DNA of 36,121 nucleotides from Acidimicrobiales bacterium (GTDB lineage Bacteria; Actinomycetota; Acidimicrobiia; Acidimicrobiales; Ilumatobacteraceae): NCBI GenBank assembly GCA_025463415.1, contig JAOBWO010000211.1, forward strand, positions 1 through 36,121, read 5' to 3'. The translations under genes were made by a program, and so were the position numbers. Positions 3,020 to 36,121 of the stretch are shown piece after piece. The notes beneath the pieces were generated by a model. That model was given only the letters and a program-made list of their open reading frames with translations. It had not been told where the DNA came from and searched no databases. Position 1 is the first letter of the stretch, and each line of letters begins with the position of its first letter.

Positions 3020-3463
3020 TCAGTCGAACTCGTCGATGACCTTGGTGAGGGCGCGCTGGACGCCGGCGACGTCGGATTCGGTGAGCTTGCTGAGGAAGAA
3101 CCGCTTGAGCACCCGGTGGTAGGTCGTGCTGGCGCGGCGCCATGCCGCGCGGCCGTCCTTGGTGAGCACGACCACGACCACGCGCTGGTCTTCGGGATCG
3201 GCGCGGTCCCGGCGGATGAGACCCTCGTCCTCCATCCCGTTCAGCTGTCGGGAGAGGCTGGAAGGGCTGGCAACGAGGTGCTCGGCCAACTCCATGACGC
3301 GCATCTTGCCGCCCGCGTCCTGCAGCGCGTTCATCGTTTCGAACCACGTCAACGGAAGCTCACGTTCGGCCCTCAGCGCGTCGGTGAGCGCGCGGTCGAG
3401 CAGGGAGTGCGCCGTACGGAGGGAGCGCCAGACCGCGAGTCGTTCGGGGTCCGGCGCGGCCAC
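3020..3463 (-). CDS. MarR-family transcriptional regulator
   Basis: A 147-aa winged-helix regulator of the MarR family. Dimerisation helices occupy about 8-50 and 110-147. The DNA-binding domain lies at about 55-105, with the recognition helix SPSSLSRQLNGMEDEGLI and the typical wing DRADPEDQR followed by a run of Val. The start is a GTG at 3463 whose last-read base pair overlaps the aminotransferase stop (TAGTG, 1-nt overlap), so translation is coupled to that gene. Such regulators usually repress neighbouring catabolic genes and are released by aromatic or CoA-linked ligands. Here the likely targets are the aminotransferase or thiolase genes. The ligand is unknown. Confidence 0.88.
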   Translation of the reverse strand: MAAPDPERLAVWRSLRTAHSLLDRALTDALRAERELPLTWFETMNALQDAGGKMRVMELAEHLVASPSSLSRQLNGMEDEGLIRRDRADPEDQRVVVVVLTKDGRAAWRRASTTYHRVLKRFFLSKLTESDVAGVQRALTKVIDEFD

Positions 3464-4695
3464 TACGCGGTGGCCTTCAGCGCAGCCTCGAACGCGCCGA
3501 GGCCGATCTCGATCTCGTGCTCGTTGACGACCAGTGGTGGCATCCATCGCAACGTCGTGCCGTAGGTGCCGGCGTTCATCAGGATCATCCGACCTTCCTC
3601 GAGGCAGTGCTTCTGGATCGCGGCGACCCTGGCCGAATCGGCGAGCTCGGTGCCGACCATCAGGCCCAGACCTCGGACCTGCGTGATGCCGTCGTCGTGC
3701 CGCTGCAGTTCGCGCAAGCCGTCCATCAACTGCCGGCCACGATCGCGAACGTTCTGCAGGAACGCCGGTTCCTCCATGATCTCGATCGTCGCCAACGCCG
3801 CAGCGCATCCGATCGCGTTGCCACCGTAGGTGCCGCCGTGACTGCCCTTGCTCCACTTCGCGTCGAGCGCGGCGGTGGTGCCCAGCGCTGCGAACGGGAA
3901 GCCGGAGGCGATGCCCTTGGCCATGCAGATGATGTCCGGCTGGATGCCGTAGTGCTCGACCGCGAACAGCTCCCCGGTACGACCGAACCCGCTCTGCACC
4001 TCGTCGGCGATGAACAGGATCCCGTGCGTCCGACAGCGCTCGACCAACCCGGCGATGAACGCAGGCGGGGCGGGGATGTAGCCGCCTTCGCCGAGCACGG
4101 GCTCGAGGATCATCGCCGCGGTCTCCTCCGGCGCGGTCATCGACTTGAGCAGATGATCCAGGCCGTGCAGCGCACGGGCGACTTCAGCGTCCTGATCCGC
4201 AGCGAGCGGATCGGGGAACGGTGCCACGTAGATGCCGGCGGGCAGCGGGGCGTGTCCTGCGCGGTAGCCGGTCTTCGACGTCGTCATCGCCATCGCCATG
4301 TGCGTGCGCCCGTGGAAGCTGCCGCTGAACACGATGATGTGCGGACGCTTGGTGGCTTGCTTGGCCAGCTTCACCGCTGCCTCGGTGATCTCGGCACCCG
4401 AGTTGGCGAAGAAGAACTTGTCGATGCCATCGGGCGTGAGCTCAGCCAGCTTCGTCGCGAGCGGCTCGAGCAGATCGTGCTTGTAGACGTTGACCTGCGC
4501 GTGGATGAACCGCTCGGCCTGCGCGGCGATCGCCGCCACCACTTTCGGATGCGCGTGACCGGTCGAGTTCACCGCGATGCCCGCGGCGAAGTCGAGGTAC
4601 TCCTCGCCGTCGGTGGTGGTGACCCAGCATCCCTTCCCGCTCGCCACCTGCAGTGGAGTCACCGAGAACCAGACGTCCGAGAGGTGCGATGTCAT
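3463..4695 (-). CDS. Class III PLP aminotransferase (4-aminobutyrate aminotransferase-like)
   Basis: A 410-aa fold-type I, class III aminotransferase. The PLP lysine is Lys260 (CMAKGIASGFP), preceded by the cofactor-binding Asp231 in IADEVQSGFGRTG. The phosphate-binding NSGAEITEAAVKLAK is at about 98-112 and the FSGSFHGRT loop at 123-131. These features match GabT and ornithine/acetylornithine-type enzymes, which pass an omega-amino group to 2-oxoglutarate. GabT is the best fit, but the substrate is not proven. The ATG at 4695 has a TAGCAT hexamer ending exactly 6 nt upstream, so it may have its own leaderless promoter inside the cluster. It is followed directly by the MarR gene. Confidence 0.9.
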   Translation of the reverse strand: MTSHLSDVWFSVTPLQVASGKGCWVTTTDGEEYLDFAAGIAVNSTGHAHPKVVAAIAAQAERFIHAQVNVYKHDLLEPLATKLAELTPDGIDKFFFANSGAEITEAAVKLAKQATKRPHIIVFSGSFHGRTHMAMAMTTSKTGYRAGHAPLPAGIYVAPFPDPLAADQDAEVARALHGLDHLLKSMTAPEETAAMILEPVLGEGGYIPAPPAFIAGLVERCRTHGILFIADEVQSGFGRTGELFAVEHYGIQPDIICMAKGIASGFPFAALGTTAALDAKWSKGSHGGTYGGNAIGCAAALATIEIMEEPAFLQNVRDRGRQLMDGLRELQRHDDGITQVRGLGLMVGTELADSARVAAIQKHCLEEGRMILMNAGTYGTTLRWMPPLVVNEHEIEIGLGAFEAALKATA

Positions 4696-4701
4696 GTGCG
4701 A

Positions 4702-4707
4702 ATGCTA
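4702..4707 (-). promoter_or_regulatory. -10 box of the aminotransferase
   Basis: On the minus strand TAGCAT ends exactly 6 nt before the ATG at 4695. There is no Shine-Dalgarno sequence in the 44-bp gap to the upstream gene. Confidence 0.42.
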
Positions 4708-4739
4708 CGTCAGCAGCGAGACTCCCCGGGACAGCCGGC

Positions 4740-5564
4740 TCAGGGGGCGGTCACGGTGACGACGACGGCAGAGATCGCGCCGTCGAGATCCGTCGCGCCA
4801 TACGTCGCGGCGATCGCGGCCTCGACCCGATCGGTCATCGCCTCGAGGCCGTCGGGCTCGCGCGAGACGATCTCGGTCCGCAGCGGCGTGCCCTGGCAGT
4901 ACCCGATGGCAACGTGCCGAGGGGATGTGGATCGACTGCGCGCCGCGACGACATCGAACACGGCATGATCGACGAAGCCCCCGTCGACGAGGTCGGCCTG
5001 AACGGTGGCAGGGTCGTGGTACCCGTGTGGGATGCGAGCGAAGAAGTCCGGCGCGTCGTCGCCGAAGTGGCTGGCGACGGGCTCGTTGACGGTGCGCGCG
5101 AAGTCGTTGAGGTCGAGCGAGTCCCACAGGTTGAAGATGAAGGTTCCGCCGGACCGGAGCACGCGACGGATCTCGGCGAACGCACGGGCCTTGTCCGGGA
5201 AGAACATCACTCCGAACTGGCAGACGACCGTCTCGAACGATTGGTCAGCGAACGGCAGGGCGAACACGTCGGCCTGACGCCACGTGACGGGCCGGCTGGT
5301 GCCGACGCGCGCGGCATGGTCGATCATCGGCTGGTTGAGATCGGTGGCGGTGATGTCGACACCGGGATCCAGGCGGTCGGCCATCTCGCGGGTCACCGCA
5401 CCCGTTCCCGCGGCGATCTCGAGCAGCGGACCGACGGGCAGCGCACGGATGCGGGCGCAGAGGTCGACCGCGTACGGCGTGAAGATCAGGGGCACCATGA
5501 ACCGGTCGTAGATCTCCGGGATGGAACCCACGAAACCGTGGTCGGACGGCAGGTCATTGCTCAT
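4740..5564 (-). CDS. Class I SAM-dependent methyltransferase
   Basis: A 274-aa protein with the Rossmann-type methyltransferase core. Motif I (LLEIAAGTGAVTREMA) is at about 47-61, the acidic loop at the end of strand 2 (ITATDLNQPMIDHA) at about 75-88, DVFALPFADQSFETVVCQFGVMFF covers motifs II and III, and RVLRSGGTFIFNLWD is the post-motif region. This is the UbiE/Methyltransf_11 style acting on small molecules. The substrate is unknown. The start lies 3 nt after the reductase stop codon, so the two are surely cotranscribed. Confidence 0.88.
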   Translation of the reverse strand: MSNDLPSDHGFVGSIPEIYDRFMVPLIFTPYAVDLCARIRALPVGPLLEIAAGTGAVTREMADRLDPGVDITATDLNQPMIDHAARVGTSRPVTWRQADVFALPFADQSFETVVCQFGVMFFPDKARAFAEIRRVLRSGGTFIFNLWDSLDLNDFARTVNEPVASHFGDDAPDFFARIPHGYHDPATVQADLVDGGFVDHAVFDVVAARSRSTSPRHVAIGYCQGTPLRTEIVSREPDGLEAMTDRVEAAIAATYGATDLDGAISAVVVTVTAP

Positions 5565-5567
5565 GGT

Positions 5568-6794
5568 CTAGAAGGCTTCCACGGCGGCGAGCGCATCGTC
5601 GAACGAGAGCCGCTCGAGGAGGAGCTTGCGGCACTGCATCAGGGGCTTCGGCATCGAGAGCCCGAGCGCACCGCGCAGGCGCCCGTGCTTGCCGTACAGC
5701 GCGACGAACGCGCGATCCGCGACGGAGCCCTTGACGATGCGCACGTCGTCGTCGCCCGCCGCGCGACCGATGAACTGGATGCGGGCGCCGTACTGCTCGC
5801 TCCAGAAGAAGGGCACGGCGCTGTACGGCTCGGGCTCTGAGCCGCTCGCGACCGCGAGCAGGTTCTTCGCCGCGTGCATCCCCTGCTCGGACGCGTTGGT
5901 CCAGTGCTCCACGCGCATCTCCTCGCCGTCGAACTGGCCGTTCGGCCACCGCGCGATGTCGCCAGCCGCATAGACGCCGACGACGCCCGCGTTGAGCGTG
6001 GCATCGCAGACGATGCCGTCCCGAACTTCGAGCCCGCTGTCGACCAGCCACCCGGTGACGGGGCTGACACCGATGCCGACGACCACGATGTCGCTGACGA
6101 TCGACTCGGCCGCGCCGTGCCCGTCGGTGATGTGCACGGTCAGCGCTGCACCGTCGCGAGAGATGCCACCGACGGAGACGCCACAGCGGATCGCGACGCC
6201 GTTGTCGTCGTGCAGCGTCGTGACGGCTCGACCCATCTCGGCGCCGAGACCGCGGATCAACGGAGCCGGCAGGCCCTCGACGACGACGACCTCGTTGCCC
6301 AGTGTGCGCGCCGTCGCCGCGACTTCGAGCCCGATGAAGCCGGCACCGATGATCGTCACCCGCTGACTGCCGGGTGCGAGGCGGGCCCGGAGCGCCAACG
6401 AGTCGTCGAGGGTGCGCAGCTCGAACACCGAGTCGTCCTCCAGTTGCTGGGGGAGGCGGCGGGTGGCGGCGCCCGTGGCGAGGATCAGACCCTCGTAGTC
6501 GACGGTCTCGCCACTCGCCAGTTCGACGGCACGGTCCGCCAACGACAGCGCCACCGCTGGTTGGCCGAGGCGGAGATCGAGCCCCAACGACTCGATCTCG
6601 CCATCGCGGAACAGCGAGATGCGCTCCGGCTCCCACTCGCCCGCGAGGACCTTCTTCGACAGTGGCGGACGATCGTAGGGCTGATGTGGCTCGTTGCCGA
6701 CGAGCGTGATCCGACCCTCGAAACCGTTCGCGCGGAGGCCTCCGCACGCCCGGACTCCGGCGAGCGATGATCCGACGACGACGACCTTGTCCAC
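5568..6794 (-). CDS. FAD/NAD(P)-dependent ferredoxin (rubredoxin) reductase
   Basis: A 408-aa flavoprotein of the oxygenase-coupled ferredoxin/putidaredoxin reductase family. It passes electrons from NAD(P)H via FAD to a small iron-sulfur partner. The first dinucleotide motif is VVVGSSLAGVRA (5-16) and YDRPPLSK follows at 40-47. ATGAATRR is at 106-113, the NAD(P)-binding GAGFIG at 150-155, and the FAD-binding YAAGDIA at about 275-281. The C-terminal reductase domain starts at about residue 320. The start is a GTG at 6794 placed right at the first beta strand, with a TACCAT -10 box 7 nt upstream. No ferredoxin or P450 is adjacent, so the electron acceptor is unknown. It probably heads the minus-strand cluster. 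Confidence 0.92.
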   Translation of the reverse strand: MDKVVVVGSSLAGVRACGGLRANGFEGRITLVGNEPHQPYDRPPLSKKVLAGEWEPERISLFRDGEIESLGLDLRLGQPAVALSLADRAVELASGETVDYEGLILATGAATRRLPQQLEDDSVFELRTLDDSLALRARLAPGSQRVTIIGAGFIGLEVAATARTLGNEVVVVEGLPAPLIRGLGAEMGRAVTTLHDDNGVAIRCGVSVGGISRDGAALTVHITDGHGAAESIVSDIVVVGIGVSPVTGWLVDSGLEVRDGIVCDATLNAGVVGVYAAGDIARWPNGQFDGEEMRVEHWTNASEQGMHAAKNLLAVASGSEPEPYSAVPFFWSEQYGARIQFIGRAAGDDDVRIVKGSVADRAFVALYGKHGRLRGALGLSMPKPLMQCRKLLLERLSFDDALAAVEAF

Positions 6795-6801
6795 GGGCGA
6801 G

Positions 6802-6807
6802 ATGGTA
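6802..6807 (-). promoter_or_regulatory. -10 box of the ferredoxin reductase
   Basis: On the minus strand TACCAT ends 7 nt before the GTG at 6794, in a 38-bp divergent gap without Shine-Dalgarno sequences. Confidence 0.45.
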
Positions 6808-6820
6808 GCGAGCCGGGCTG

Positions 6821-6826
6821 TAGCCT
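6821..6826 (+). promoter_or_regulatory. -10 box of the NeuD-like acyltransferase
   Basis: TAGCCT ends exactly 6 nt before the GTG at 6833. It is back to back with the reductase promoter in the same 38-bp gap. Confidence 0.45.
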
Positions 6827-6832
6827 GCGCGA

Positions 6833-7477
6833 GTGCAGTCCAGGCGCGTGCTCGTGATCGGTGCTGGTGGCCACGCCGGCGTGTGCATCGAGGCGCTGCT
6901 CGACGATCCTCAGCACGTGGTCGTCGGCTGCGTCAGCAAGACCGGCGAGCCAGGCCGCAATCCGTTGCCGAGCGTCGAGATCGTCGGCACCGACGCCGAC
7001 CTCGACGACCTGATCCCGGCGCATCAGGTCACCCACGCCTTCGTCGCGGTCACCAACAACCGGGTCCGCGCCGCAATGCTGCGCCGATGCGCCAAGCTCG
7101 GGCTTGCGGTGGCGAACGCGGTCAGTCGCGGGGCCTACGTGTCCCACTCGGCAGCGGTCGGCGACGGCGTGCTGCTGGCCGCCGGATCGGTGGTCAACGC
7201 CTCGGCACGCCTCGGCGCCGGCGTCATCGTCAACACCAACGCATCGGTCGGCCACGACTCGATCGTCGGTGATGCCACGCACGTCGCACCCGGCGTGGCG
7301 ATGGGCGGCTCGGTGCTGATCGGTGAGCAGGTCCTGATCGGCATCGGCGCGCGCATCGTTCCCGGCGTGTCGATCGGCGACAACGCTGTCATCGGCGCCG
7401 GCAGCGTCGTCACGCGCGACGTGCCGGCGGGCGCAGTGATGGTCGGCAACCCCGCTCGCAGAGTTCAGCGACCCTGA
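6833..7477 (+). CDS. NeuD/PglD-family sugar O/N-acyltransferase
   Basis: A 214-aa left-handed beta-helix acyltransferase of the NeuD/PglD family, which acetylates nucleotide-linked amino sugars or sialic acids for surface glycans. The N-terminal Rossmann-like domain ([11 protein letters not shown], 6-16) binds the nucleotide sugar. Hexapeptide repeats run from about 103 to 205. His141 in [14 protein letters not shown] matches the catalytic His of PglD, and His150 is the companion position that binds acetyl-CoA. The C-terminal GNPARRV is typical. The GTG at 6833 gives the conserved beginning. The gene is convergent with the DUF4012 gene (16 nt between stops), which supports a role in cell-surface polysaccharide modification. 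Confidence 0.9.
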
Positions 7478-28137: not shown

Positions 28138-29658
28138 CTACGTCGTTACGGACGTCGCGAGGATCCCGGCGTAGAACGACTCGCAGCACCGCACGACCGT
28201 GTCGCACAACTCGACCGTCGTGGGGTCGGCAAGCGGATCCGCCGCTCGGGTTCGCCACTTCGTGATCGCCGTGAGCGCAGCTGACTTCAGCGCGTCCTGC
28301 GACTCTGATGGCCCGCGTGAACCGGCGAAGGCATCCTCCGGCGCGTCGGCGACCAGGATCGTGCGCACCTCATCGGTGTCGGCTGCGGCTGCGAACGAGA
28401 CGAGGCCTGAGCCCAACAGGTGCAGGGCACGGATGCGCGCGAACTGCGTCGTGCTGGCCTCGATCCGCTCGAGGTCGCGGTCGATGCCGGCGGCGAGCGC
28501 CGAGGCCTCTGCGGGCAGACGACGAAGGAGCGCCCGCAACGCCAGCAACGCCGACCTCGCCTGCAACACACGGGCGCGTGGGGCGAAGTGGTCACGGAAC
28601 AACGACCGCAGGGCCTGCAGTCCGGAGACGTCGACCAGCACGGCGCCGAGTTCGGATGCGGTCGTCGCCCTGCCGGCGCGAATCTCCTCGACGGCGAGGC
28701 GAACCCCGAACAGCCCCAACCGGTCGAGCAGATCGCGTCGCCACTCGACGGTCAGCTGGCTGCTCGACATGTCGCAGAACTGCTCCGCGGACATGAGCAT
28801 CTGCTCCAGCACTGCGGCGTCGGTGGCAGCCAGCGTTCGCAACGCAGCGGCTTCGTCCTCGCGCAGCGTCAGCCCGGTCTCGGCGATCAACCCGGCTAAC
28901 GGCACCACCGTCGCGCACAGGTTCACCAGTTGTGGATCGGTGGAGTAGCGGGCCGCGATCCTGGCCGCTGATGCCATCGCATCGAGGCGGCCGGCGCCGA
29001 TCTCGTCGGCGCGGCTGAGCACGGCGACAGCATTGACCGGCGACGCTGCGGTCACCGACCGATCCATGAACGCATCGAGGAACGCGACGTCGCTGCGGTG
29101 TGCGTGCCGCATCAGGTACACGACCGCATCGGCGTCTCCCGGTCCCTCGGCGTCGGCCTCCAGGAACTCGCGGGTGCGCCGCGAGTTCTCGTCGTGCACG
29201 CTCTCCAGGCCCGGCGTGTCGATCAGCGTGACCGTCTCGAGCGACGATGTCGGCCACGACACGTCCACCCGGTCGATGTCGGCCTCCGTGGCCGAGCCGA
29301 GGTCGATCGACAGGGCTCCGCCGGCGCGATTGAAGGCCAGGTTGCGGCTCGTGCCGTCGATCATCCGGGCCGTGACCTCGTAGCCGGCGCCTCGTCGATA
29401 GGCCGTGACGAGCTTGGTGCATTCGCCGGCGTCGGTCGGGGCCAGCCGCTCGCCGACCAATGCGTTGAGCAGCGTTGACTTGCCGGCTTTCACCCGTCCG
29501 GCGATGGCCACCCGCAACGGTCCCCGGAGTCGCTCCACGATCGCCTGCGCGTCGGCGCGCATGGCCTCGTCTGGCGCCTCGGCGGCCAGCTTCGTGGCAG
29601 CCGCGAGGACGTCGTCCGCGACGGAGCCATGCGCTGCGGCCACACCAACGGAGCTCAT
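28138..29658 (-). CDS. Dynamin-like GTPase, IniC-type
   Basis: A 506-aa large GTPase of the dynamin superfamily. The P-loop is GRVKAGKST (54-62), switch 1 Thr is in AGECTKLVT, G3 is DTPG (147-150), and G4 is SRAD (215-218) in place of the usual TKxD. The region from about 290 to the end is helical, without a clear transmembrane helix. Its size, order and partner match mycobacterial IniC, the second GTPase of the isoniazid-induced iniBAC operon. It overlaps the IniA-like gene by 4 nt (ATGA), so the two are coupled and may work as a hetero-oligomer on the membrane. A symbol is not given because orthology is unproven. Confidence 0.87.
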   Translation of the reverse strand: MSSVGVAAAHGSVADDVLAAATKLAAEAPDEAMRADAQAIVERLRGPLRVAIAGRVKAGKSTLLNALVGERLAPTDAGECTKLVTAYRRGAGYEVTARMIDGTSRNLAFNRAGGALSIDLGSATEADIDRVDVSWPTSSLETVTLIDTPGLESVHDENSRRTREFLEADAEGPGDADAVVYLMRHAHRSDVAFLDAFMDRSVTAASPVNAVAVLSRADEIGAGRLDAMASAARIAARYSTDPQLVNLCATVVPLAGLIAETGLTLREDEAAALRTLAATDAAVLEQMLMSAEQFCDMSSSQLTVEWRRDLLDRLGLFGVRLAVEEIRAGRATTASELGAVLVDVSGLQALRSLFRDHFAPRARVLQARSALLALRALLRRLPAEASALAAGIDRDLERIEASTTQFARIRALHLLGSGLVSFAAAADTDEVRTILVADAPEDAFAGSRGPSESQDALKSAALTAITKWRTRAADPLADPTTVELCDTVVRCCESFYAGILATSVTT

Positions 29659-31523
29659 GCCTGCCTCGCGATCGCTGCGCGCAGCGCGGCCTCGTACTTG
29701 CCGAGGTCCGTGACCTTCGCATCGATCTCCCCCGCGCGTGTCTGACGCTCGGCGTGCGACTTCTGCACGTCGGCCTGAGCACGGGTGGCCGTGTCGGTGT
29801 AGGTGCGCTGCAGCTCCGCAAGGCGTTCACCGAACTCGTCGCGCAGGTCGCGTTGGATCTCCTTGATCAGGTTGGCGATCTGGTTGCCGACCTCGAACTG
29901 CACGTCGTCGAGGAACTGCCGGACCTGGGTGCGCGCCGCTTGCCGTCGCGCTTGCACCTTGCGCTTGCGGTCGTCGATCAGGCCCATCGACCCAAACAGC
30001 AGGCCAACGCTCAACAGCACAGGGTTCGAGGCGAGCAGAACTCCAGCCGCGGTGGGCAGGAAGGAGCCGAGCATGCCGAACATGTAGATGCCGCCTTGGG
30101 CGCCACGAATGGTCGTGACGCTCGTCGAGAAGGCGCGCTTGCTGGTTCGATCCGAGCCGGTGTCGAGCGATTTGCCCTGCCACAGCTCGCTGACGTCGTA
30201 GGAGCTGTTGTACGACGCCTCCGGTGCGAGTTCGAGCTGTTCGTCCCGGATCAGGTCGACGACCTGGGCGCGGATGTCGTGACGGCCCTGCTCGAGATCC
30301 ACGAACACATACGTCACCTGCTCGGCGACCACCGACTGGATGTGGCGCGAGAGGTCGTCCCATTCGTTGCCCTTGCTGAGCTGCTCGATCCGCTCGTCCA
30401 TCTGCTTGGAGATCGTGCGCGCGGCGCCACGGAACCGGAAGTTCACATCGCTGGAGAGATCGGCGACCCTGTCGCCGACGACCTGCGTCCACTTCGCGCC
30501 CGGTCCGCGCAGGTGGTCGAGCCGCGCCTTGGCATCCTCGAGCGTCTTCAACGCGGCTCCTGCCGCGGCCGGATCGGTGAGCAGCGACCGCTCGGTCTGG
30601 AACCCACTTCGCACCTGATCGATGATGCCGCTCGCGTCCACTGCAGCGCGGTTCGCTGCCCCGGTCTTCGCGGGTTGGACGACGTCGTCGTTGAGACGTG
30701 CGATCACGTCCGGGACCCGGCTGCGCACGTTGAGGTCACGGTCCTTGCGGCGGAGCGCCTCGAATCGCAACGCGCTGCTGACGGCGACGATCGGCACGTC
30801 GATCTTGGCCTCGGCGAGATGACGTCGGTCGAGCTCCAGGATCTTCTCCCATGACGGATACAGGTCGATCTTGGTCAGCGCGAACAGCACTGTCGGGCAC
30901 AGCTCGCGCGCCTGCTTCAAGAACGCGATCTCCGGTGCGCTCAGCTCTGCCGACGCGTCGCTGACGAACACCAAGCCGTCGGCGAACGGCAAGAAGCCGA
31001 GCGTCGCTGCGGCGTGTCCCGCACCGAGCCCGCCCATCCCCGGCGTGTCGACGACGACGAGCCCTTGCTTCAGCAACGTGCTGTTGCACGCCATCTCCAC
31101 TCGTTCGACGCGCTTGAGGTTGCCCGGGTTGCCGATCTCGCTGACCCAGTCCTTGATCGATCCGACCGGCACCGACTCGGAGACGTCTTTGTCACCGTCT
31201 TTGCGACGGACGATCGCGGTTGCTTCGTCCCCGAACCGCACCAGCGTGATCGCCGACGTTGCCAGATCGTCGTCGACGGGGCACAGCTCCTGGCCCAGGA
31301 GCGCGTTGATCAACGAGCTCTTGCCCTGCTTGAACTCGCCGACCACACAGACGACCGTGTTCGGCCGTCGCAGCCGAGCGACGGCTGCAGCGGTACGACG
31401 AGCCAGATCGGCTCGACCCTCTCGGGTCAGCCACTTGCCCAGTTCGCTGATGACGACGTCGGCAGCCGGACCTTGGCCCGCAGCCGGAGCGGCGGTCTGG
31501 GGAGCGGGGTGCACATCGGTCAT
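29655..31523 (-). CDS. Dynamin-like GTPase, IniA-type
   Basis: A 622-aa bacterial dynamin-like protein. The P-loop is GEFKQGKSS (62-70), G3 is DTPG (159-162) and G4 is TKID (217-220). A long helical stalk follows, then a hydrophobic paddle at about 472-515 (YMFGMLGSFLPTAAGVLL ... LLFGSMGLI) that would insert in the membrane, and a C-terminal coiled coil. Mycobacterial IniA has this layout and remodels or severs membranes in a GTP-dependent way. That is known for the family, not shown here. The ATG at 31523 overlaps the stop of the upstream IniB-position gene by 4 nt (ATGA), which fixes the start and ties the three genes together. Confidence 0.9.
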   Translation of the reverse strand: MTDVHPAPQTAAPAAGQGPAADVVISELGKWLTREGRADLARRTAAAVARLRRPNTVVCVVGEFKQGKSSLINALLGQELCPVDDDLATSAITLVRFGDEATAIVRRKDGDKDVSESVPVGSIKDWVSEIGNPGNLKRVERVEMACNSTLLKQGLVVVDTPGMGGLGAGHAAATLGFLPFADGLVFVSDASAELSAPEIAFLKQARELCPTVLFALTKIDLYPSWEKILELDRRHLAEAKIDVPIVAVSSALRFEALRRKDRDLNVRSRVPDVIARLNDDVVQPAKTGAANRAAVDASGIIDQVRSGFQTERSLLTDPAAAGAALKTLEDAKARLDHLRGPGAKWTQVVGDRVADLSSDVNFRFRGAARTISKQMDERIEQLSKGNEWDDLSRHIQSVVAEQVTYVFVDLEQGRHDIRAQVVDLIRDEQLELAPEASYNSSYDVSELWQGKSLDTGSDRTSKRAFSTSVTTIRGAQGGIYMFGMLGSFLPTAAGVLLASNPVLLSVGLLFGSMGLIDDRKRKVQARRQAARTQVRQFLDDVQFEVGNQIANLIKEIQRDLRDEFGERLAELQRTYTDTATRAQADVQKSHAERQTRAGEIDAKVTDLGKYEAALRAAIARQA

Positions 31524-33616
31524 TGGTCGAGATCGTCCCACACTTCGTCTGCGGCGGCCTGGTTGACCTCGGCGCCGACGACGTCGCCGGTGAAGTCGTC
31601 GAAGTTCCCCTCCTGCGCATATGTCGCGACGGCCTGGACCGCACTGCCCGCGTCGTCCGGCAGGGCATCCTGCACCTGACCGAGGACGTCGCTGAGGTCG
31701 CCGGTCGAGGCGAGTGCGCCGACCAGATCGGCCTGGCTCGGCATCTGGTCTGGGAACGGCACGCCGCCATCAGGGAGGTCCAGATCGGGGATGTCCGGCA
31801 GCGCCGCGATCGCGTCCTGGACCTCGGGCATGTCGGTGATGTCACCAAGCCCCGGGATGTCCCCTGGGAGCTGATCCGGCAGCGAGCTCAGATTCGGAGC
31901 GGCGGGGATCTGATCGAACGCATCCTGCGGCGTCGGGATCTGATCGAGCGCATCCTGCGGGGTCGGGATCTGATCCAACGCGTCCTGCGGGGTCGGCAAC
32001 CCACTCGTCAGGTCGTCGAAGGTGGGTGGGCTGTCGAAGCCGTCCGGCAATCCCGGGATGTCGACCCCACTGAGGTCGCCGTCGGTGGTGGTGACGCTCG
32101 TCCGGGTCCCGTCGGCCGCGGTCTCGGTGGTGTTGTCGTAGCTGCCCTGGGCGCTGGCATCGCCATAGCTCCCGTGACCGGAGACGTTGGTGTGCTCAGT
32201 CACGGACCCGTCGGCGTTCTCCTGGCTCTCGTGGTCGTATTTGCCTCCGGCGTCGAAGTCGCCGGCCGTCACGTCGACGTTCGCGTTCGTGGTCTCCGTC
32301 TCCCGACCTTGCGCGTCGACATCGTCGGTGTCGTCGTAGCCGGCGGCCGCATGGAAGTCGTCACCCTGTGCACTGCCGTGCACGCCGAAGGTCGTCGTCT
32401 CCGATCCGTCGGCGCGCTCGGTGTCCGAGTACTCGCCGTCGCCGTGGAACGTGTTGCCGGCAGCGTCGACGTCGGCGTTGACCGAGACGGAGTCGCGCGT
32501 CGTGCCGTCGGATGTCTCCTCGTGCTCGTACTTGCCCCCGGCGTCGATGTGCGTGCCGTCGGCGTCCACGGTGGTGTGCGTCTGCACCGTCGTCAGCGAA
32601 CCGTCCGGCGACTCGGTGTGGGTCACGCTCTCGTTGGCGTCCACGTCGACGCCATCGCCGTGGGCGGTGCCGTGGAGGTTGACCCCGTCGGTGGTGGTGT
32701 CGCCTTCTTCGTCGTGTTGGTATGCGACGTCGACCGTTCCACCGCTGCCCTCGTAGTCCTTGTAGCCGCCACCGCCCGCCACTGCGACGTCGGTGTTGCC
32801 CTGGTTGTCCTCGGACACCTCCACGTCGGCGTTCGCGCTGTACGCGCCGGACGGCGTGTACAACGTTCCGTCCGCCTGGTGGACGGTGTTCCAGCTGCCG
32901 TCGGCGTTCTTCTCGAATCCACCGTGAGCCGACGCGTCGAGCAGGCCGACGGGTGTGGGGATGATCGCCTGGGCCTTGCCGTCGATGCTGATCTCGCCGT
33001 CGGCGCCGTGCTCGATGTGCCCCTTGGCGCCCGGGAGCGACGCGATGTCGAGCCCGGCTCGCCCGTCGACTCCGAAGCTGCCGTCCGTGCCGACGTCGCC
33101 GCCGAGGCCGAAGGTCAGGTCCTCGTAGTGTGCCCCGATGCCGCCTTCGCCGACGTGAGCGCTGCCATACAGCACGTCGGGCACACCGGCTTCGATCGAC
33201 AGGTTGCCGTTCTCGTAGTTCGGCGCGATGAGGCCGAACGTCATCGTCTCGACCGGGTCGAACACGATGGTGTCGGCTGCGGACAGGCCCCAGTCCATCG
33301 TGTCGACGGCGGCCTGCGCCACGACCTTGGGCGCGTCGGCGATGGCCTGGGCGACCGGCTTGACCCAGTCCTCCATCATCCCGCCGACGCCGTCGGACAC
33401 CCACCCCATCACCATGCCGGTGTGATCCACGACCTCGTTGACGACGGTCTCCGCCGCGCCTGCGGCGAATCCGTAGCTGTAGGTGACGCCGTCCTTGACG
33501 ATGCCGGCCATCGTCTCCACGACGTCCTTGACGATGTCGGCACCGTCCTCGACGACCTGCACGGCGTCGTCGACTCGATCTCCGGCCCACCCGATCGGAT
33601 CATCAAACAAGCCCAT
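31520..33616 (-). CDS. Acidic beta-repeat protein in the IniB position
   Basis: A 698-aa, strongly acidic protein that I cannot assign to a family. Residues 1-100 contain amphipathic helices (GLFDDPIGWAGDRVDDAVQV ...). Residues ~130-500 are built of repeating 30-45-residue beta units rich in Gly, Asp, Thr and His (patterns such as ADGTHIDAGGKYEHE, HGDGEYSDTERADGS and DFDAGGKYDHESQENADGS). About 530-570 holds three tandem copies of PTPQDALDQI, and the rest is an Asp/Pro/Leu-rich tail (DIPGLGDITDMPEV, DIPDLDLPDGG). No signal peptide or membrane helix is clear. The ATG at 33616 has an AGGAG site. It is translationally coupled to the IniA-like GTPase, the place that Gly/Ala-rich IniB holds in mycobacteria. 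Confidence 0.85.
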   Translation of the reverse strand: MGLFDDPIGWAGDRVDDAVQVVEDGADIVKDVVETMAGIVKDGVTYSYGFAAGAAETVVNEVVDHTGMVMGWVSDGVGGMMEDWVKPVAQAIADAPKVVAQAAVDTMDWGLSAADTIVFDPVETMTFGLIAPNYENGNLSIEAGVPDVLYGSAHVGEGGIGAHYEDLTFGLGGDVGTDGSFGVDGRAGLDIASLPGAKGHIEHGADGEISIDGKAQAIIPTPVGLLDASAHGGFEKNADGSWNTVHQADGTLYTPSGAYSANADVEVSEDNQGNTDVAVAGGGGYKDYEGSGGTVDVAYQHDEEGDTTTDGVNLHGTAHGDGVDVDANESVTHTESPDGSLTTVQTHTTVDADGTHIDAGGKYEHEETSDGTTRDSVSVNADVDAAGNTFHGDGEYSDTERADGSETTTFGVHGSAQGDDFHAAAGYDDTDDVDAQGRETETTNANVDVTAGDFDAGGKYDHESQENADGSVTEHTNVSGHGSYGDASAQGSYDNTTETAADGTRTSVTTTDGDLSGVDIPGLPDGFDSPPTFDDLTSGLPTPQDALDQIPTPQDALDQIPTPQDAFDQIPAAPNLSSLPDQLPGDIPGLGDITDMPEVQDAIAALPDIPDLDLPDGGVPFPDQMPSQADLVGALASTGDLSDVLGQVQDALPDDAGSAVQAVATYAQEGNFDDFTGDVVGAEVNQAAADEVWDDLDQ
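31907..31996. repeat. 30-bp tandem repeat, three copies
   Basis: Three near-identical 30-bp units (31907-31936, 31937-31966, 31967-31996) encode the three copies of PTPQDALDQI/PTPQDAFDQI in the acidic protein. Confidence 0.85.
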
Positions 33617-33783: not shown

Positions 33784-34299
33784 ATGGACGCGACACCTTC
33801 CCTTGATCTGGCAGCGCAGATCGTCGCTCAACCGAGTGCGATGCTGCCGGGGATCCCGCCCTTCGTGTTCTCCCTGCCTCTGGGCTGGGTGCTGGACGAA
33901 GCACCGGGAGCGCTCGCGTTGATCCGCCTGCCCGAAGAGATCGACGGGTTCTTGATCAACGGCATCCTCAGCCACGACAAGGTCTCGCGCACGGTCGACT
34001 TCAAGGAGGCGGCCGCGTTCACGCTGCAGCGGCTGAAGGCAGGCTGCCCCGACGTCGAGGTCTTCATGGAGAAGTTCATGCAGCTCGGTGGCCGGCCGGT
34101 GTTCCTGCGCGCGATGCGGATGAGCGCACCGAAGTCGGGCCGGGCGATCTCGCAGCTGCAATCGATCTGGTTCGGCCCCACCAACGGGCCGGGCAAGGTC
34201 GTCGACTTCTTCCAGTGCGTGTTCACCTGCCCGGCCGAGCACGTCAACGCGGTCTCCCCGCAGGCCCTGCACTTCCTCGCCAGCTTCAAGTTCGTCTGA
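33784..34299 (+). CDS. LpqN/LpqT-like protein
   Basis: A 171-aa protein that resembles the LpqN/LpqT family of actinobacteria (PsbP/Mog1-like fold). After ~25 polar residues come a strand FVFSLPLGWVLDEAPGALALIRLP, a middle segment with KEAAAFTLQRLKAGCPDVEVF, and a C-terminal strand-helix pair FQCVFTCPAEHVNAVSPQALHFLASFKFV. The typical family features are the opening P-x-GW strand, a central long helix, and a final helix followed by a beta strand. Unlike mycobacterial LpqN it has no signal peptide or lipobox, so it is probably cytosolic or exported another way. The family is of unknown function, and some members interact with envelope or type VII secretion proteins. It is divergent from the iniBAC-like operon. 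Confidence 0.65.
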   Translation: MDATPSLDLAAQIVAQPSAMLPGIPPFVFSLPLGWVLDEAPGALALIRLPEEIDGFLINGILSHDKVSRTVDFKEAAAFTLQRLKAGCPDVEVFMEKFMQLGGRPVFLRAMRMSAPKSGRAISQLQSIWFGPTNGPGKVVDFFQCVFTCPAEHVNAVSPQALHFLASFKFV

Positions 34300-34421: not shown

Positions 34422-36121
34422 TCAGAAGTCGGTGGTGGTCGGATCGCTCGGTGAGACGTCGTTGCCGATGTCGTCGCCGAAGCTCGGACCGTCGTCGCTC
34501 GAGAAGTCGGGCGGCGACGGCGGGCTCGGCGGATCGGGAAGGTCCGGGAGCTGGCTGAGGTCGGGCGCGTCCGGCACGTCCGGAGCGTCGGGGATCTGCG
34601 GGATGTCGGGCAGGTCGAGGGCGGGCATGTCCGCCGGCGGCGGTGGCGGTGGCGCTTCCCCCGTCGGAGCATCGGGGATCGTCGGGAGGTCGAAGTCATC
34701 GGCGGGAGCCGGTGCGGAGATGTCATTGGTCGCGTCGACGCCGCCGAGGATGTCGGGCAGGTCGGTCGGATCCGGGATCGAGGGCTTCTCGGACGGTCCG
34801 GCGTCGCCTGCTGCGCCTCCCCCGCTGTAGTCGCCGCCTGCGTCCGGCACCGTCGAAGCCGATCCGGCCGCAGCCCCCTGCGACGTCGCAGACTGTCCGA
34901 CGTGTGCATCGAACGGGTCCATGATCCCGGTGTTGCCACTACCGGCCGCGCTCCGGAACCCGCTGTCCTGGTCATCGCCCGCTGCAGGTTCGGGTGCCCC
35001 GGCGCCCTCACCGGCAGCCACGTTGGCGGCGCCGCCCTGTGCGTAGGCGACACCCGGCCCGTCCGAGATGGCGCCGTTGGAGGGTTGGTCGGCACTGGAC
35101 ATGCCTGCGGTGTTCGCAGCCGCGACAGTGGCAGCGCCGTAGGTGGCCGCGTCGGCCGCGCCAGACGTTCCCGGGTCGGAAGCGGCGGCACCCTCGTTCG
35201 TGGCAGCAGCGCCTTGGTACGCAGCGGCGTCGCCGTGGCCTTGCGCCTCACCGGCGGAGGCGCCCGTCGGAGCCTGCGCGGCACCCTCGCCGGCGCTCGG
35301 CACGGCCGTGTCGCCGAGACCGCCGGGCAGGACGATCGTCGGCGTCGGGATCTGCACGGTCGGTAGGCCCAGCGCTGCAGCCGTGCCTGCGATCTGGGCG
35401 TTGGCGCTCGCGACCTGCGCGGCCAACGCAGCGTTGACCGCAGCCAGATCCGGAGCTGCATCAAGTGGGTCCATCGGCACCTGGATGGGCGTGAACGGCA
35501 GCCCGCTCGCGCCGGCCTGGGCCGCCATCGCCTGGTTGATCGCAGCCACTTGCGTCGCGACCGCGTCGTACGCGGCGGACGGTGCATCCGCTCCGGACTC
35601 ACCCATTGCGCCGCCGGCACCAGTGTCCTGCGGAGCACCCTCGCTAGCGCTCGGCATCGCGGTGTCGCCGAGACCGTCCGGCAAGACGATCGTCGGCGTC
35701 GGGATCTGCACGGTCGGCACGTTCAGGGCGGAAGCCATGCCCGCCAACTGGGCGTTGGCGTTGGCGACCTGCGCGGCCACCGCCGCGTTGACCGCAGCCA
35801 GGTCCGGTGCCGCATCGGCGGGGTCCATCGGCACCTGGATCGGCGTGAACGGCAGCCCGCTGGCGCCGGCCTGGGCAGCCATCGCCTGATTGATCGCCGC
35901 AACTTGCGTCGCCACCGCGTCGAACGCGGCCGACGGTGCATCCGCTCCGGACTCACCCATTGCGCCACCGGCCCCGGGATCCGCGCCAGGACCGCCGGCC
36001 TGACCAGCTTCCGGATCGGTGCCAGTCGGTGCCTCGTCCGGGAGCGTGATCGTCGGGATCGGGATCTGCACCAGTGGCCGATTCATGGCGGAAGCCATGC
36101 CGGCCATCTGCGCGTTGGCGC
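34422..36121 (-). CDS. Large Ala/Pro/Asp-rich tandem-repeat protein (partial, 3' end)
   Basis: The last 565 residues of a longer protein whose start is outside the window. Repeats of 118-120 residues run from the window edge: each has AQxAGxAxAL, VQIPTPTI, a variable acidic/Gly linker, GAMGESGADAPSAA, DAVATQVAAINQAMAAQAGASGLPFTPIQVPMDP and AAPDLAAVNAA. Two complete units and the start of a third are seen. An Ala/Gly-rich stretch (about 260-430) follows, and the C-terminal ~115 residues are Asp/Pro-rich, with a run of six Pro and ladders such as LDLPDIPQIPDAPDVPDAPD. No enzyme motif is seen. Ala-rich repeats and the acidic tail resemble the IniB-position protein next door, suggesting a related envelope role. 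Confidence 0.75.
   Translation of the reverse strand, partial: ANAQMAGMASAMNRPLVQIPIPTITLPDEAPTGTDPEAGQAGGPGADPGAGGAMGESGADAPSAAFDAVATQVAAINQAMAAQAGASGLPFTPIQVPMDPADAAPDLAAVNAAVAAQVANANAQLAGMASALNVPTVQIPTPTIVLPDGLGDTAMPSASEGAPQDTGAGGAMGESGADAPSAAYDAVATQVAAINQAMAAQAGASGLPFTPIQVPMDPLDAAPDLAAVNAALAAQVASANAQIAGTAAALGLPTVQIPTPTIVLPGGLGDTAVPSAGEGAAQAPTGASAGEAQGHGDAAAYQGAAATNEGAAASDPGTSGAADAATYGAATVAAANTAGMSSADQPSNGAISDGPGVAYAQGGAANVAAGEGAGAPEPAAGDDQDSGFRSAAGSGNTGIMDPFDAHVGQSATSQGAAAGSASTVPDAGGDYSGGGAAGDAGPSEKPSIPDPTDLPDILGGVDATNDISAPAPADDFDLPTIPDAPTGEAPPPPPPADMPALDLPDIPQIPDAPDVPDAPDLSQLPDLPDPPSPPSPPDFSSDDGPSFGDDIGNDVSPSDPTTTDF
35405..36121. repeat. 354-360-bp tandem repeat inside the Ala-rich gene
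   Basis: The sequence around 35461-35620 recurs at 35815-35974 with an offset of 354 bp and very few changes. Just before the window edge the same unit begins again. Homogenised repeats of this size are prone to expansion and contraction. Confidence 0.85.

Follow-up and report, generated by a model that had tools for sequence, protein, structure and literature searches.

We examined a stretch of 36,121 nucleotides (the window), which is one entire contig (JAOBWO010000211.1) of the 4.7-Mb genome GCA_025463415.1 from an Acidimicrobiales bacterium of the Ilumatobacteraceae (76% complete, 482 contigs). It carries three joined minus-strand genes, which a first-pass annotation had called a variant of the isoniazid-induced iniBAC operon of mycobacteria:

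31520..33616, minus strand: rep, the first gene, a 698-residue acidic repeat protein (ATG at 33616, ATGA overlap with iniA)
29655..31523, minus strand: iniA-type dynamin, 622 residues, IniA family clade II by homology and trees (ATG at 31523)
28138..29658, minus strand: iniC-type dynamin, 506 residues (Pfam Dynamin_N, 8.2e-14)

The coordinates and both four-nucleotide junctions were confirmed. The minus strand reads ATGA where rep runs into the iniA-type gene and where the latter runs into the iniC-type gene (CCAATGACC and GGCATGAGC). AGGAG was found within 30 bases upstream of the rep ATG, and Dynamin_N was matched by gene 2 as well (1.9e-20). As read from the sequence, an acidic repeat protein is thus followed in one overlapping unit by an IniA-family and an IniC-type dynamin. 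Half of the iniBAC reading was correct: both dynamins are IniA/IniC-type, yet they belong to a sister lineage with a partner set of its own.

Gene 2 had been taken for an IniA-like protein and not for a generic dynamin, and this was borne out. On its own it scored 279.7 bits against M. smegmatis IniA (6j72; residues 34-607, E 4.6e-82) and 41.2 bits against the next dynamin; an 18-sequence profile which included the window protein scored IniA with 600 and the next dynamin with 86 bits. The homology reaches past the GTPase domain into the helical part and the tip, i.e. the protein is a member of the IniA family. The lysine-serine of the G1 motif (GKS) is present, and the serine occurs in 21 of 23 clade-II rows, two rows being gapped. 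An IniA tree was calculated from 110 rows: 103 locus sequences (115 minus 12 exact duplicates, one short row having been excluded earlier), six outgroup dynamins and one mycobacterial row, M. smegmatis IniA. Clade I contained 74 rows with M. smegmatis IniA, clade II 23 rows with the window protein (support by the SH-like approximate likelihood ratio test, SH-aLRT, 99) and clade III seven rows. When 59 chosen rows were analysed under a mixture model, the identical three groups came back with supports of 94, 100 and 91. Long branches and supports of 88-89 make the root given by the distant dynamins uncertain, and we rely solely on clades I and II being separate. A constraint joining clade II with a 12-row M. 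smegmatis group was rejected (approximately unbiased test, AU, p 0.0035), a value weakened because the group was defined after viewing the tree. The window IniA lies in a sister lineage apart from the M. smegmatis IniA clade, and in both trees it fell outside the clade with the mycobacterial protein. The IniA family extends far past the mycobacteria, with two or more main lineages and one with Hsp70 fusions.

That gene 3 is IniC-like was supported by the relatives: an IniC-type gene is next after IniA in 96 of the 96 loci with room for it (clade I 70/70, clade II 20/20, clade III 6/6). Gene 3 shares 39-53% identity with 13 genes following IniA in relatives, and its name is based on position and on this family, not on comparison with mycobacterial IniC. 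Where 1.3 kb or more of sequence followed iniA, a four-nucleotide iniA/iniC overlap in frame with iniC was observed in 59/70 loci of clade I, 18/20 of clade II and 2/6 of clade III; locus genes were called by a simple caller, and start codons and some overlapping open reading frames (ORFs) are approximate. The overlap is a trait common to the family. In one Amycolatopsis locus (L147:7926-11231, plus strand) the IniA and IniC matches share one open frame, a possible fusion.

The first genes set the lineages apart. Among relatives in the Acidimicrobiales, the NCBI IniB N-terminal domain is frequent in the gene that precedes iniA. All 11 chosen upstream genes matched NF038175 (IniB_NTERM; E<=0.1, best 7.4e-14), four also matched the Rv0340 family, and from these 11 an IniB N-terminal model was built. 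At E<=1e-3, in loci with 1.5 kb upstream of iniA, it matched 41/60 in clade I, 0/20 in clade II and 0/7 in clade III (clade I versus II, p 1.9e-8, loci treated as unrelated). The figure of 41/60 is probably a lower bound because some clade-I loci, by eye, have diverged IniB versions. All 41 IniB-domain loci are thus in the lineage of M. smegmatis IniA, to which that of the window is sister, and the designation as an iniBAC variant was not supported. As the first-pass annotation had stated, rep is not recognisably IniB: NF038175 gave no match to it at E<=1. In the window's own genome, as far as it is complete, NF038175 had no match at E<=0.01, and the model built here reached E 0.295 at best. 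Among 221 genomes of the family NF038175 matched six weakly (E<=0.01), none above cut-off.

The binned genome G444 (83% complete) has a rep-type operon on contig C676 (locus L089) and, on C506 (L211), a second iniA-iniC pair whose IniB-like stretch scored below the cut-off (E 1.8e-8); this second operon sits on a 4.6-kb contig, for which a binning error is possible. Because G444 seemingly holds both operon types, separate systems are favoured over one system with a replaced gene. At locus L224 (484-2718, minus strand) IniB-domain genes lie upstream of a cut iniA; its genus code is that of L035 (genome G006), and operon type may therefore vary even between close relatives.

What rep might do is approached from its anatomy:

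33242..33616, minus strand: rep residues 1-125, predicted amphipathic helices with 11-residue periodicity by autocorrelation, a candidate lipid-surface helix
32069..33232, minus strand: rep residues 129-516, 33-residue beta-hairpin repeats by periodicity
31523..31606, minus strand: rep C-terminal tail NFDDFTGDVVGAEVNQAAADEVWDDLDQ, acidic/aromatic, similar in most rep-family members and paralogues

Asp+Glu make up 19% and Lys+Arg 2% of rep (counted on the 715-residue ORF from an upstream TTG). It had zero Pfam or NCBIfam matches at E<=1. In residues 1-125 the lag-11 autocorrelation was z=5.8 (L084 10.3, L089 8.9); lag 11 was not the top lag in the N-termini of L085, L090, L086 or L088. Helices of 11-residue amphipathic repeats have a pitch of about 98 degrees. 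The best helical angle of the rep N-terminus was 97.5 degrees (0/300 shuffles as high), and the hydrophobic moment peaked at 97.0-100.5 degrees in seven of seven proteins tested. We take this N-terminus to resemble perilipin-type helices; Pfam Perilipin was matched weakly by one of eight rep proteins (E 0.0062). The perilipin family shares the 11-residue amphipathic periodicity; unlike it, rep is acidic and fused to beta repeats, and homology is not claimed. In residues 129-516 the 33-residue period reached z=6.5 against 200 shuffles, and 33 is the top lag also in L084, L085 and L090, not in L089. An AlphaFold2 model of rep has helices first and then strands of about 13 residues as hairpins, with block values of the predicted local distance difference test (pLDDT) of 46-89 in residues 331-510 and lower ones ahead of 331. 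A fold assignment from this model was abandoned as too weak, and Foldseek matches among PDB and viral models (mostly porin-like, tail-fibre-like or unnamed, with low TM-scores) were set aside. By composition the beta region is poor in hydrophobic residues, which makes a porin-like barrel doubtful.

Relatives of rep lie directly upstream of iniA in L083, L084, L085 and L089, i.e. in the place of IniB, as had been proposed for the window. In L090 the relative is one gene further upstream, and in L086 it adjoins iniC on the opposite strand. The near-identical locus L083, from an Ilumatobacteraceae metagenome-assembled genome, is 96% identical in IniA, 94% in the divergent neighbour gene div and 87% in the first gene; divergence is greater in the first gene than in the neighbouring ones. 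Searched as a single sequence against 248 genomes of the order, rep matched the window alone. A rep profile matched seven of the 221 family genomes at E<=0.001, six of them convincingly; the seventh (G006) was a low-complexity helical match and not rep. IniA was found at E<=1e-60 in 20/221 genomes, a tally which misses genomes with a cut iniA such as G351 (L224). All six convincing rep genomes are among these 20 (hypergeometric p 2.6e-7, weak seventh excluded). In two genomes, however, rep paralogues sit on contigs that lack iniA. These paralogues (L213, gene 5670-7259; L214, genes 3096-5379) have a similar tail of the W(D/N)DLG type. Rep is family-restricted.

Conservation of the repeat protein in related loci was partial: some have rep relatives by iniA, other clade-II loci an unlike acidic protein or none. 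The unlike bodies include a 'GIDAGDLAGKLGE' repeat (L088), a Gly-rich protein (L087) and Pro/Thr-rich ones (L092, L093). We scored a first gene as acidic when it was on the same strand, had Asp+Glu minus Lys+Arg of at least 10% and at least 100 residues. Such a gene was present in 46/60 clade-I and 12/20 clade-II loci, against a background of 21/675 other genes of the same loci. This suggests that an acidic protein of little-constrained exact sequence frequently acts together with IniA/IniC-type dynamins. The tails of ten proteins were compared right-anchored in 25 pairs without BLAST-matching bodies. They were alike in 17 pairs (p<0.05, uncorrected), one of which (window-L086b) lies inside the rep profile family. 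When the tails of six rep proteins were made into a model and run at E<=1 against 1374 gene tails, 11 rows came back, ten from the rep family and one at chance level; a single tail motif common to all first genes was not borne out by it. The tail is clearly similar in seven of eight aligned rep members, less so in L090. Judged on these similarities, members of the rep family probably share a docking tail; outside the family the likeness is only suggestive.

The putative lipid contact of IniA also differs. Lipid binding by M. smegmatis IniA relies on R488 and K489, and its R488D mutant does not cut (excerpt of PMC6715688). The R488 position corresponds to chain index 490, the offset of two being taken from the GKS serine, S50 in the excerpt of PMC6715688. 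Arg occupies this position in 59/74 clade-I rows and in 0/23 clade-II rows, and Lys the K489 position in 53/74 and 5/23, respectively. The window protein has Ser and Met there, i.e. no basic pair. The corresponding feature is:

29976..30086, minus strand: IniA residues 480-516, hydrophobic and free of charges, in the position of the IniA lipid-interacting loop

In the window protein and its nearest relatives this uncharged stretch is longer and is followed by DDRKRK. Membrane insertion of clade-II IniA by a hydrophobic hairpin appears plausible.

Hsp70-type genes accompany the dynamins in 74/103 loci (clade I 50/73, clade II 17/23, clade III 7/7), counts which are lower bounds because many loci are short. 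In clade III an Hsp70 nucleotide-binding domain (NBD) and IniA formed one polypeptide in three of three such ORFs scanned with Pfam, e.g. HSP70 at 5-355 and Dynamin_N at 429-587 in L217. These fusion frames of about 1000 residues are:

L217:7376-10342, minus strand: Hsp70-IniA fusion, IniC gene following
L228:6950-9913, plus strand: Hsp70-IniA fusion, IniC gene following
L227:7572-10619, plus strand: Hsp70-IniA fusion, contig ending too soon for IniC

Genes for STAND-LuxR regulators, detected with a profile built here from both lineages, were present in 39/73 clade-I, 6/23 clade-II and 0/7 clade-III loci. Of three regulators scanned with the IniR model NF038181, clade-I L043 matched with 159 bits (1.6e-46), below the cut-off of 750 bits; L085 of clade II and L073 from the window's own genome did not match at E<=0.001. 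No regulator was seen adjoining the operon in the window. On another contig of the same genome (C147) a STAND-LuxR gene, a 63-residue gene and two Hsp70 genes were found. Many loci of the lineage thus also have a gene for an Hsp70-type ATPase, and some have one for a STAND-LuxR regulator. A short conserved gene (63-94 residues, '..WW....DPW..') was noted by STAND-LuxR/Hsp70 genes in L073:1435-1626 (minus strand), L089:889-1110 (plus) and L090:2183-2467 (plus).

We propose that the three genes constitute a membrane-remodelling module, sister to yet distinct from mycobacterial iniBAC, in which rep would be a membrane-surface scaffold; in our judgement this could go either way. The unit may be switched on by envelope stress. 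Rep would settle on the cytoplasmic membrane surface with its 11-residue-repeat amphipathic helices and display a long, negatively charged beta-repeat arm, and its conserved acidic/aromatic tail may dock to IniA, IniC or Hsp70. IniA and IniC would pair up on that membrane patch, where they would use GTP to sever or reshape damaged membrane, and Hsp70 might load or disassemble their assembly. The arm would be exchangeable for unlike acidic repeats because mainly bulk and charge would matter. GTP-dependent fission by M. smegmatis IniA (excerpt of PMC6715688) and the lowered vesicle release upon loss of iniAC (excerpt of the review PMC11077946) count in favour. So do the IniA homology over residues 34-607, the constant IniC neighbour, the Hsp70 genes and fusions, the frequent acidic first genes, the co-occurrence of rep with IniA in genomes, the 11-residue period with its hydrophobic moment, and the tails that are alike where bodies do not match.

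Several observations weigh against this proposal. Besides the rep paralogues away from iniA, 8/20 clade-II loci (L095, L096, L097, L098, L117, L145, L154 and L161, five labelled Chloroflexota) and all seven clade-III loci have no acidic same-strand first gene within reach. Therefore, such a gene is not obligatory; L095, L096, L097 and L117 have an acidic gene by the identical measure elsewhere within the fetched stretch. Eight of the 25 tail pairs were not significantly alike, and the six-rep tail model missed L087, L088 and both acidic proteins of L090. With a mean pLDDT of 48.8 the structural model of rep is of low quality, and the 50 PDB matches listed for it, mostly porins and none above a TM-score of 0.27, are uninformative. 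Hsp70 and regulator genes are absent from the window contig, the genome's own copies being on C147. Because R488 is missing in 23/23 clade-II proteins, fission through the same contact is not assured.

Possibly rep is a structural or envelope protein which is co-expressed with the dynamins under stress and has no direct contact with them. M. tuberculosis IniB (Rv0341) reportedly resides in the cell wall and, expressed in M. smegmatis, alters permeability (excerpt of PMC7350357), and the bodies of the first genes vary widely among loci. We consider this somewhat unlikely: by inspection only, rep has no evident signal sequence, all convincing rep genomes have iniA, and the rep stop overlaps the iniA start.

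A highly diverged IniB whose ancestral N-terminal domain has eroded past recognition would share position, acidity and repetitiveness with rep, and, by eye, both proteins open with a short hydrophobic/acidic helix-like segment. Even in mycobacteria IniB varies strongly in size and presence, and its role beside IniA and IniC is called unclear (excerpt of PMC5760070). Yet not even the IniB model built here matched any of the 20 clade-II loci, and NCBIfam IniB_NTERM failed on rep; this explanation is unlikely.

Improbable in our view is a true iniBAC orthologue with iniB replaced by another repeat gene. The resemblance to mycobacterial iniR-iniB*-iniB-iniA-iniC (excerpt of PMC5760070; 6j72, 6j73) is considerable: gene order and overlaps are alike, IniA is homologous over near its full length, an IniC-type gene is next, and the first gene is repetitive and in both lineages often acidic. 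M. smegmatis, without iniB, has a dnaK-like gene adjoining iniR (excerpt of PMC5760070), similar to the Hsp70 genes by many loci here. However, the window IniA is outside the M. smegmatis clade and their union was rejected, with the post hoc group noted above; both operon types apparently coexist in G444; Chloroflexota-labelled clade-II loci have neither IniB nor rep; the L085 regulator did not match IniR as L043 did; and the R488/K489 contact gives way to the longer uncharged stretch.

That the genes form a LeoABC-like dynamin system for phage defence is very improbable: the PADLOC LeoA profile matched genes 2 and 3 (3.9e-19 and 1.8e-11), yet weakly and at the family level (67 and 42 bits versus 279.7 bits to IniA), the PADLOC dynamin matches were judged generic, and among seven proteins scanned the only non-dynamin matches were weak ones to the LuxR part of L085. 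LeoABC has its dynamins side by side. So does C. jejuni (excerpt of PMC6715688), like the window; the similarity of these paired bacterial dynamins to the window genes is low (chains of 5owv 22-29 bits to gene 2 alone, LeoA 67 bits).

To return to the remodelling module, it may be part of a wider pattern. Clade-III loci resemble the window in having an IniA-family protein with IniC next, and differ by the Hsp70 NBD on the IniA polypeptide and the missing acidic first gene. A widespread 'IniAC + Hsp70 + acidic arm' remodelling machine of Actinomycetota and Chloroflexota, of which mycobacterial iniBAC is one branch and whose first protein is a scaffold with constant ends and a variable body, is a tentative idea and rather doubtful. 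In this scaffold the membrane-binding N-terminus and docking tail would be kept and the long acidic middle swapped for unlike repeats; if so, the charged arm would be interchangeable and IniB one of its versions. We found no description of such a machine in the open-licence PMC literature. The question of IniB becomes testable: is it a charged membrane-surface partner, and is there an Hsp70-dynamin link? The latter is supported because Hsp70-IniA gene fusions exist. Most useful is the overall pattern that emerges: IniAC dynamins, frequently accompanied by Hsp70 and by an acidic protein that is interchangeable.

Two further genes lie at higher coordinates than rep in the window:

33784..34299, plus strand: div, 171 residues, divergent neighbour gene with a Mog1/PsbP/LpqN-like fold in an AlphaFold2 model
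34422..36121, minus strand: Ala/Gly/Pro-rich acidic gene, truncated at the contig end, with a tail homologue in the same place in L083

A div gene is near iniA in 9/23 clade-II and 0/73 clade-I loci, and it accompanies rep-type operons. Its confidently predicted model (mean pLDDT 86.5) resembles 3lyd, PsbP, LpqN, Mog1 and the Eag chaperones EagT6/SciW (E 1e-8 to 1e-3); that div might be a chaperone for amphipathic helices is speculation from this model. The gene at the contig end has long, near-identical internal repeats. Searches of plasmids yielded 39 and 37 records, in which the matches were mostly partial; in one from Nocardia farcinica an IniA-like place (87% covered, 32.6% identical) lies near an IniC-like one (50% covered).

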